From Pseudomonas laurentiana (lineage in GTDB: Bacteria; Pseudomonadota; Gammaproteobacteria; Pseudomonadales; Pseudomonadaceae): DNA of 64,000 bases. Of the stretch, positions 46,166-47,312 are shown in pieces (position 1 is the first letter of the stretch; every line of letters begins with the position of its first letter). The notes beneath the pieces are model-generated. The model worked only from the letters and a program-made list of their open reading frames with translations. It did not search any database and was not told the DNA's origin. The stretch covers positions 62,001 to 126,000 of the forward strand of contig NZ_BMQU01000008.1 in the NCBI RefSeq assembly GCF_014648275.1. Reading direction: 5' to 3'. A program made the translations under genes and the position numbers.

Positions 46166-46189
46166 TGTACAAGTTAAAATTTATGTACA
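46166..46189. promoter_or_regulatory. LitR-type operator 1 (TGTACA-N12-TGTACA)
   Basis: TGTACA at 46166-46171 and 46184-46189 with exactly 12 bases between. It lies between the predicted promoter and the DUF523-DUF1722 start codon, where binding would cover the transcript start or leader. Confidence 0.75.
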
Positions 46190-46198
46190 GATTTGATC

Positions 46199-46226
46199 AT
46201 CATAGATAGGGGGCTGTACAAGTCAA
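46199..46226 (-). promoter_or_regulatory. Sigma-70 promoter of the DUF523-merR-phrB operon
   Basis: On the minus strand TTGACT (46226-46221) and TATGAT (46204-46199) are 16 bases apart, each 5/6 to consensus. Operator 2 overlaps it: the -35 lies in its 12-base centre and one TGTACA lies in the promoter spacer. Confidence 0.7.
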
Positions 46227-46238
46227 ATGATTTGTACA
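46215..46238. promoter_or_regulatory. LitR-type operator 2 (TGTACA-N12-TGTACA)
   Basis: TGTACA at 46215-46220 and 46233-46238, exactly 12 bases apart. It covers the -35 region of the operon promoter, the classical position for repression or for MerR-type spacer control. Confidence 0.78.
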
Positions 46239-46253
46239 GCTTTTTCAGTGGGA

Positions 46254-47240
46254 TCAGTCCAGGTGCTCAAGCAGACGCCGTGCCGCTTCCTGGCCGCTTA
46301 GCCAGGCCCCTTCAACCCGACCGGACAGGCACCAATCGCCGCAGGCATAGAGGCCGAGATCAGCGTCAGCCAGAGCCCCCCACTCATGGTTGCTGGAAGG
46401 GCGTGCATAGAGCCAGCGATGGGCGAGGGAGAAGCTGGGGGCCGGGACCGCACAGCCGATCAGTTCCGCGAAGTTGCCGAGCAACTGCTCGATCACCGCC
46501 TCCTTGGACAGGTCGATGTGCTGTTTGCTCCAGTTCGCAGTGGCGTGTAGCACCCAGGTATCAAAGTGTTCGTCACGCCCTGGCTTGCTGCGATTGCGCG
46601 CGAGCCATTCGAGCGCGCCATCTTGTACGAAGCAACCTTGCAGTGGGGTATCCAGCGGGTTTTCAAAACCGAGCGCGATGGCCCACGTGGGGTCCATTTG
46701 CACGCTGGCGACTGTAGCTGCGAGTTTTGGGGCCGCGGTCAGGAGCTGGGTTGCCTGAGGTGCGGGCACCGCAATGATGACGCGGCTGAACGGGCCATGG
46801 CTGCAACCTTCGGTGTCCTGCAGGTGCCAGTAATGCTTGCCGCGAAACACTTCGGCGATCCGGCAATTGAAGTTGACCGTCGAGTCTTTGAGCAAGGCAC
46901 GGGTAATGGCGCTCATGCGTGGGACGCCTACCCAGCGAACCTGCTCGTCTGGCGAGGGGGTGAGTTGGCCCGCGTTGTAGTTGTAGAGGTGCGGTTTCCA
47001 CTCCGCGACCGAGCCGTGAGCCTGCCATTCCTGAACCTGGGCAAGGAAGCGCCGGTCGCGGGCAGTGAAATACTGTGCTCCGAGGTCGAGCGCCCCGGCT
47101 TCGCTGCGTTTGCTGGCCATGCGTCCACCGCTGCCTCGGCCTTTGTCGAACAGATGCACGGTTTGCCCGGCCTTTTGCAGGGCCTGGGCAGCGGACAAGC
47201 CGGCGATGCCTGCGCCGATGATTGCAATAGGTATGGTCAT
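46254..47240 (-). CDS. Renalase-like FAD-dependent oxidoreductase
   Basis: A 328-residue flavoprotein with an N-terminal dinucleotide fold [35 protein letters not shown] and [12 protein letters not shown]. The C-terminal FAD contact is [20 protein letters not shown]. This is the bacterial renalase pattern; the characterised Pseudomonas enzyme oxidises the misformed 2- and 6-dihydro-NAD(P) isomers. The start at 47240 replaces a longer frame to 47324, which would include the operator. Divergent from the TIGR01777 gene with operator 3 between. Confidence 0.85.
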
Positions 47241-47288
47241 GATGGCCTCTTTAACCTTTGATACGCAGACTACGCTGTCTGACAAACC

Positions 47289-47312
47289 TGTACAATGCCT
47301 GATCAATGTACA
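47289..47312. promoter_or_regulatory. LitR-type operator 3 (TGTACA-N12-TGTACA)
   Basis: TGTACA at 47289-47294 and 47307-47312, again exactly 12 bases apart, with a TGATCA palindrome in the centre. It lies 49 bases upstream of the renalase-like start and 115 upstream of the TIGR01777 start, so it can serve either or both divergent genes. A TACAAT on the plus strand (47309-47314) overlaps its right half. Confidence 0.75.

Follow-up and report, generated by a model that had tools for sequence, protein, structure and literature searches.

Three perfect copies of the motif TGTACA-N12-TGTACA, found in a 64,000-nucleotide stretch of Pseudomonas laurentiana DNA (hereafter the window), are very probably the operators of a blue-light regulon of the class II LitR/short-LOV type, through which rudS, litR1, phrB and a renalase gene would be induced. 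The copies lie at 46166-46189, 46215-46238 and 47289-47312; no further perfect site is present in the window, and the next best matches carry two mismatches. When up to two mismatches were allowed, six matches were counted in the window against a mean of 0.70 in shuffled sequence, and none of 100 shuffles reached six. The relaxed form T(G/A)TACA-N12-TGTA(C/T)A, with up to one mismatch, returned the same three sites only (shuffle mean 0.11, maximum 2). The original observation of three perfect sites and none elsewhere in the window was thus borne out by motif scan and shuffling. The genome-wide scan suggested along with it was run on the source genome (5.21 Mb, 223 contigs) and gave six perfect sites, half of them from the window, and none for a reversed-pattern control. 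Chance repeats as the source of the three window sites are ruled out by the shuffles together with this control; the three sites are real and nonrandom.

All six perfect sites precede genes: besides the three in the window, one lies ahead of a ufaM-type operon, one ahead of a chalcone-isomerase-like/DUF3833/SDR operon and one ahead of a PAS-PAS-MCP gene. With up to one mismatch, 15 sites were found genome-wide, nine of them with one mismatch, versus six for the reversed-pattern control, so chance may explain most of the nine. The relaxed published consensus is fitted exactly by three of these nine (contig 16:61075, contig 21:2638 and contig 21:23782). The perfect site at contig 16:61120, which has a one-mismatch site 45 bp away, stands ahead of SnoaL-like, SDR, FAD oxidoreductase, DUF1365 and cyclopropane-synthase-like genes, and the label UfaM-type for this block is based on gene order and the cyclopropane-synthase domain rather than on a comparison with UfaM. 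The chalcone-isomerase-like, DUF3833 and SDR genes follow the site at contig 16:68428, and the PAS-PAS-MCP gene (L016 8963-10381) follows that at contig 3:356396. A second PAS-PAS-MCP gene (L019 5400-6725) lies 57 bp from the one-mismatch site at contig 21:23782, and a photolyase-related gene of the cryB type is 155 bp away from that site. Among the PAS-MCP matches listed, three of 30 loci have a site with at most one mismatch (source genome, G045 and G048); the remaining 27 lack one, so the chemoreceptor link looks limited to few species. For cryB, a site with at most one mismatch lies within 180 bp upstream in eight of 24 loci from 23 genomes. The site at contig 21:2638 (L018 2638-2661) is flanked by a CheW/response-regulator (CheV-like) gene on one side and a LysR gene on the other, and no convincing gene was found behind it.

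Two of the three window sites belong to one promoter on the minus strand. The overlapping minus-strand genes rudS (45182-46150; a TudS-DUF1722 tRNA 4-thiouridine desulfidase with PF04463 and PF08349), litR1 (44305-45192; a class II LitR-type MerR regulator with MerR_1 and B12-binding_2) and phrB (42848-44308; a deoxyribodipyrimidine photolyase by Pfam, NF007955 above cut-off) probably form one operon, with rudS as its first gene. The RudS encoded here has the TudS part followed by DUF1722 and keeps C17, C49, C114, E51, R60, S111 and S113 at the RudS_KT positions. A litR-type regulator gene beside phrB with operators had been foreseen, and litR and phrB indeed stand behind two operators; of the regulon genes named earlier, phrB, the MerR regulator and the renalase hold, and rudS, the first gene of the operon, had been missed. 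Directly upstream of this operon and on the same minus strand is the renalase gene, and a TIGR01777 family gene and hemH run in the opposite direction. At the other end, a PagL-type lipid A 3-O-deacylase gene (42213-42731) is convergent to phrB.

The promoter of this operon consists of the -35 hexamer TTGACT (46221-46226) and the -10 hexamer TATGAT (46199-46204), separated by a 16-nt spacer. Operator site 1 (46215-46238, minus strand) covers the -35 hexamer, and operator site 2 (46166-46189, minus strand) is located between the -10 hexamer and the rudS start codon. This TTGACT-N16-TATGAT is the sole sigma-70-like match in 46100-49500, where shuffles average 1.0 match, so that the scan alone is no evidence; the promoter is credible because it is identical to a mapped promoter of P. 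mendocina. That promoter, P6650, has TTGACT-N16-TATGAT and a pair of TGTACA-N12-TGTACA operators, of which site 1 overlies the -35 and site 2 falls between the transcription start and the ATG (PMC9758184). Both hexamers and the placement of both sites in the window agree with it. One site overlaps a minus-strand TTGACT-N16-TATGAT, as noted earlier.

In P. mendocina, DNase footprints of P6650 were obtained with PmlR2, illuminated PmSB-LOV releases PmlR2, and light induces pmlR1 and phrB; the cluster is light-induced in P. putida too, according to earlier work cited there (PMC9758184). The PmlR1/PmlR2-PmSB-LOV system, as far as that paper describes it, has in common with the window the operator, the hexamers, the two-site layout and a light operon that includes litR and phrB; with the source genome it shares a short LOV gene next to another litR, and ufaM in the regulon. 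The two differ in that the nine P. mendocina genes PME6650-PME6610, including ufaM, form one operon, whereas here the ufaM-type operon lies on a separate contig with its own operators. Judged by gene order, PME6630 (SDR) and PME6625 (FAD oxidoreductase) seem to belong with the ufaM block rather than to be TIGR01777 and renalase, and the main text of PMC9758184 names neither hemH nor PP_074x. By analogy with P6650, binding of LitR, its release by LOV and light induction would be expected at the rudS-side promoter of P. laurentiana as well.

For P. putida, PMC9758184 takes the consensus T(G/A)TACA-N12-TGTA(C/T)A from Sumi et al. 2020 and cites PplR1, phrB, ufaM, folE and cryB as light-induced in strain KT2440. 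The PplR1-3 regulon of KT2440 shares this consensus and, in the published descriptions, the order of PP_0739 (photolyase), PP_0740 (PplR1) and PP_0741 (RudS). RudS enzymes, with P. putida PP_0741 among those tested, take 4-thiouridine out of tRNA, and the TudS-DUF1722 fusion is described as sharing its operon with LitR and PhrB, as here (PMC11417400). Since PP_0741 is rudS and the order in the window puts renalase next, PP_0742 should, by synteny, be the renalase gene; it would then be part of the cluster PP_0738 to PP_0742 whose joint up-regulation in co-culture speaks for the regulon reading (PMC11014904).

The third operator (47289-47312) lies between two divergent genes. On the minus strand is the renalase family flavoenzyme (46254-47240), residues 1-327 of which align with residues 1-327 of the PDB entries 4zcc, 4zcd and 5krq, named 'Renalase' (E 8e-169); the match to solved Pseudomonas renalase, PDB 3kkj included, is full-length (E 2e-169 and 8e-169). 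The predicted renalase-like enzyme is accordingly placed in the renalase family by its full-length match, and it has an operator of its own. A GTG start would lengthen the frame to 47324, and the ATG at 47240 is preferred because the match starts at residue 1 of the solved protein. On the plus strand follow the TIGR01777 family oxidoreductase gene (47427-48329; TIGR01777 above cut-off) and the ferrochelatase gene hemH (48343-49356; TIGR00109 above cut-off). The gap between these two is 13 bp here, mostly 11-16 bp and up to 212 bp in relatives, and they probably form one operon, which is probably outside the regulon.

The conservation of the third operator was followed in 78 stretches: 76 from the 78 other genomes of a set of 79 Pseudomonas genomes (75 in which RudS matches in full, plus G014, in which no RudS was found), one from P. 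defluvii and the window. Three stretches (L123, L124 and L125) have no divergent renalase/TIGR01777 pair and were dropped; in the other 75 the pair is present, and an operator with at most one mismatch lies between the genes in 74. Dinucleotide shuffles of the same regions gave a site in three of 1500 cases. The sole divergent pair without the operator (L122) has a best site with two mismatches. The distance from operator to renalase start is 46-54 bp in 72 of the 74 pairs, with an SD of 1.9 bp when the outliers L080 and L088 are left out, and the distance to the TIGR01777 start ranges over the 74 pairs from 111 to 232 bp (SD 32 bp) and is not fixed. Column identity among 31 dereplicated sequences is 0.91 in the half-sites, a value inflated by the choice of rows for having the site, and 0.48 in the spacer; L122 was left out of the column counts. 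The 40-bp flanks, which are free of this bias, are 0.50 identical on the renalase side and 0.34 on the TIGR01777 side.

The conserved block on the renalase side reads GCGTAGTCTG on the minus strand and is placed like a -10 element, seventeen bases from the TTGTAC of the operator. From sequence and column conservation, TTGTAC (47290-47295), inside the operator, and TAGTCT (47267-47272), in the conserved block, are the candidate -35 and -10 of a renalase promoter with a 17-nt spacer; TTGTAC-N17-TAGTCT is far from consensus and was missed by the promoter scan of 46100-49500. The prevailing form of the renalase operator in other species is TGTACA-N12-GGTATA, with one weaker half-site, so its affinity may be lower there. 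The same weaker form has been reported before folM of P. mendocina (PMC9758184). Because the spacing to renalase is fixed and the flank is conserved on that side, the third operator (minus strand) most likely belongs to renalase, and LitR binding, release and light induction would then take place at the renalase promoter also.

The third site had been thought to serve the renalase/TIGR01777 pair, and hemH to belong to a wider photodamage programme. The renalase half of the first proposal stands on the fixed spacing; the TIGR01777 half does not, and TIGR01777-hemH was rejected as a direct target on the drifting distance and the low identity on its side. With an operator distance to TIGR01777 that varies between 111 and 232 bp, the comparison gives no support to light control of TIGR01777 and hemH; the operator tracks renalase and not TIGR01777-hemH, which most likely have a separate promoter outside this control. 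If the third operator were nevertheless bidirectional and drove TIGR01777-hemH too, light would give more ferrochelatase and less photosensitising protoporphyrin. This is unlikely, though least so in L080 and L088. The position of the site between both genes in nearly all pairs and the mostly short TIGR01777-hemH gaps would agree with it, as would the two outliers, L080 and L088, in which 428 and 118 bp separate the operator from renalase and its distance to TIGR01777 stays at the usual value (129 and 123 bp). However, the SD of 1.9 bp to renalase, those two set aside, compares with 32 bp to TIGR01777, and the identity on the TIGR01777 side is low. Furthermore, the cluster of P. putida genes reported as up-regulated together in co-culture runs from PP_0738 to PP_0742 and ends there (PMC11014904).

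The 44305-45192 protein may not be the sole binder of the three sites. Contig 14 encodes another LitR, 38% identical to LitR1 (LitR2; L029 6184-7224), its B12-binding_2 score of 19.1 being below the Pfam cut-off of 23; it may be a further candidate, because a paralogue of the PmlR2 kind was footprinted on this promoter in P. mendocina (PMC9758184). One small gene separates LitR2 from a short LOV gene (L029 5031-5495), which was found by reading the LitR2 neighbourhood. The LOV protein has no effector domain; it matches the short LOVs of Pseudomonas with solved structures (best E 5.5e-68) and reads DCRFLQQ at the LOV motif. Two pattern searches missed this gene: a GRNCRFLQ-type pattern gave one two-mismatch match on contig 6, where none of the frames listed (200 aa or longer) was recognised as LOV-like, and a (D/N)CRFLQG-type pattern gave one match on contig 7, in a stretch with no LOV gene. 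The 14-kb stretch with LitR2, LOV and a FolM-like SDR gene contains no operator at up to two mismatches, unlike P. mendocina, in which folM is described with one.

When the comparison was extended over Pseudomonas, at least two sites (up to one mismatch) were counted in 65 of the 77 loci having rudS, spaced 49-51 bp apart in 61 of the 65; the other 12 have fewer (11 with one, one with none). The pattern TTGA(C/T)N-N15-18-TANNNT is present in 63 of the 77 rudS promoters. A search of named genomes with LitR1 gave three relatives only, P. defluvii and two Oceanospirillum; the closest, P. defluvii, has a LitR 87% identical to LitR1 and all three sites with zero mismatches to the relaxed consensus. 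Two loci depart from the usual gene content: in G014 (L126) no RudS was found, and phrB is followed by relatives of the SnoaL-like, SDR and FAD-oxidoreductase genes known from the ufaM block; in G015 (L061) no litR was found between rudS and phrB.

The short LOV is present at E up to 1e-35 in 71 of 79 Pseudomonas genomes. Eight lack it (G013, G018, G030, G036, G037, G038, G064 and G066), and in each of these the LitR2 query finds a single match, at the place of LitR1; a second LitR was found in all three LOV-bearing genomes checked (source genome, G001 and G047). The renalase operator occurs in 74 of the 79 genomes (73 when P. defluvii is not counted, plus G047) and is absent at up to one mismatch in five, namely G001, G013, G037, G038 and G064; G047, with a partial RudS match, and G037, with none, were examined through their renalase loci only. 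Four of the five operator-lacking genomes are LOV-less, the exception G001 having LOV, and four LOV-less genomes (G018, G030, G036 and G066) have kept the operator. Loss of the operator is associated with loss of LOV at a Fisher p of 2e-4, a value that ignores ancestry, as the four genomes lacking both may represent few lineages or one. In G013, G038 and G064, renalase and rudS are on different contigs.

All eight genomes without LOV and without a second LitR retain LitR1, along with one or more sites (up to one mismatch) on the rudS/litR side. This would fit a LitR1 that answers mainly an input other than LOV, for example redox or another photoreceptor, with light as one trigger only. A similar hint comes from P. 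putida, in which the cluster was induced in co-culture without more light: the authors thought that light per cell was lower, so that the induction there would have had another cause (PMC11014904). We consider such an input quite unlikely to be the main one here, in view of the LOV and second LitR genes close together in the source genome and of the light induction reported in P. mendocina and, by citation, in P. putida (PMC9758184).

By its domains, 44305-45192 is assigned to class II LitR: the N-terminal MerR helix-turn-helix (PF13411, E 1.1e-19) and PF02607 (B12-binding_2, 26.7 against a cut-off of 23) make it class II in its domain make-up. That LitR1 is a class I CarH-like protein, itself sensing light through adenosyl-B12, is highly improbable: a MerR domain with the B12-binding_2 four-helix bundle and a weak match to CarH structures (E 3.7e-15) speak for it, but with E up to 10 Pfam lists no other B12-binding domain, DLVFDPQL stands opposite GERHEIGA of CarH in the alignment, with F at the position of the histidine, presumably the cobalt ligand, and the protein reaches 69 with the NCBIfam CarH model, whose cut-off is 400. 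The class II regulator is called adenosyl-B12-dependent in PMC11417400, which is not supported by the domain content here nor by what PMC9758184 reports. The earlier identification of a class II LitR-type regulator, together with its motif form, is in agreement with both the domains and the published operator.

In the class II LitR/short-LOV reading, LitR (the 44305-45192 protein and/or its contig 14 paralogue) would in the dark occupy the two operators around the rudS-litR1-phrB promoter and the single operator over the renalase -35, so that both -35 elements are covered and RNA polymerase is blocked. Under blue light the short LOV encoded beside LitR2 would bind LitR and free the promoters, and rudS, litR1, phrB and renalase would then be transcribed. 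RudS would strip the photo-reactive 4-thiouridine from tRNA, PhrB would repair pyrimidine dimers in DNA, and renalase would oxidise wrongly reduced NAD(P)H isomers. A separate promoter outside LitR control would serve TIGR01777 and hemH from the same intergenic region. The renalase of P. phaseolicola reportedly oxidises 2- and 6-dihydro-NAD(P); to our knowledge, the cellular purpose of bacterial renalase is unclear.

The regulon itself is already published. What we claim is its genus-wide footprint and the assignment of the third operator to renalase over TIGR01777-hemH; a first discovery of the link between the light regulon and renalase is not claimed. Sumi et al. 2020 (J Bacteriol 202:e00146-20) are said to list 19 genes for the PplR1-3 regulon of P. 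putida, and this list may well include renalase under another name, since the degenerate letters of the consensus fit the renalase-promoter sites of several species. Light control of renalase was not found among the best-ranked matches of a literature search, judged by their titles; PP_0742 was found named in a single paper, as the last gene of the co-culture cluster (PMC11014904), and a paper on the P. cichorii photolyase contains no LitR, MerR, operon, renalase, TIGR01777 or ferrochelatase.

These findings suggest that the preparation of Pseudomonas for light protects cofactors and tRNA besides DNA, the programme guarding three targets: DNA through PhrB, tRNA through RudS and the nicotinamide cofactors through renalase. 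They also point to a group of Pseudomonas in which the repressor is kept and the known photoreceptor is lost. A further reading, tentative and one that we hold possible without favouring it, is that renalase is primarily a light-response enzyme in Pseudomonas and that a second signal route into class II LitR exists. The operator would then have been kept because light chemistry gives rise to wrongly reduced isomers of NAD(P)H, which need re-oxidation, and the LitR1 and operators retained by the LOV-less species would reflect the second route. A blue-light operator conserved ahead of renalase in most Pseudomonas sampled makes the role of renalase directly testable.
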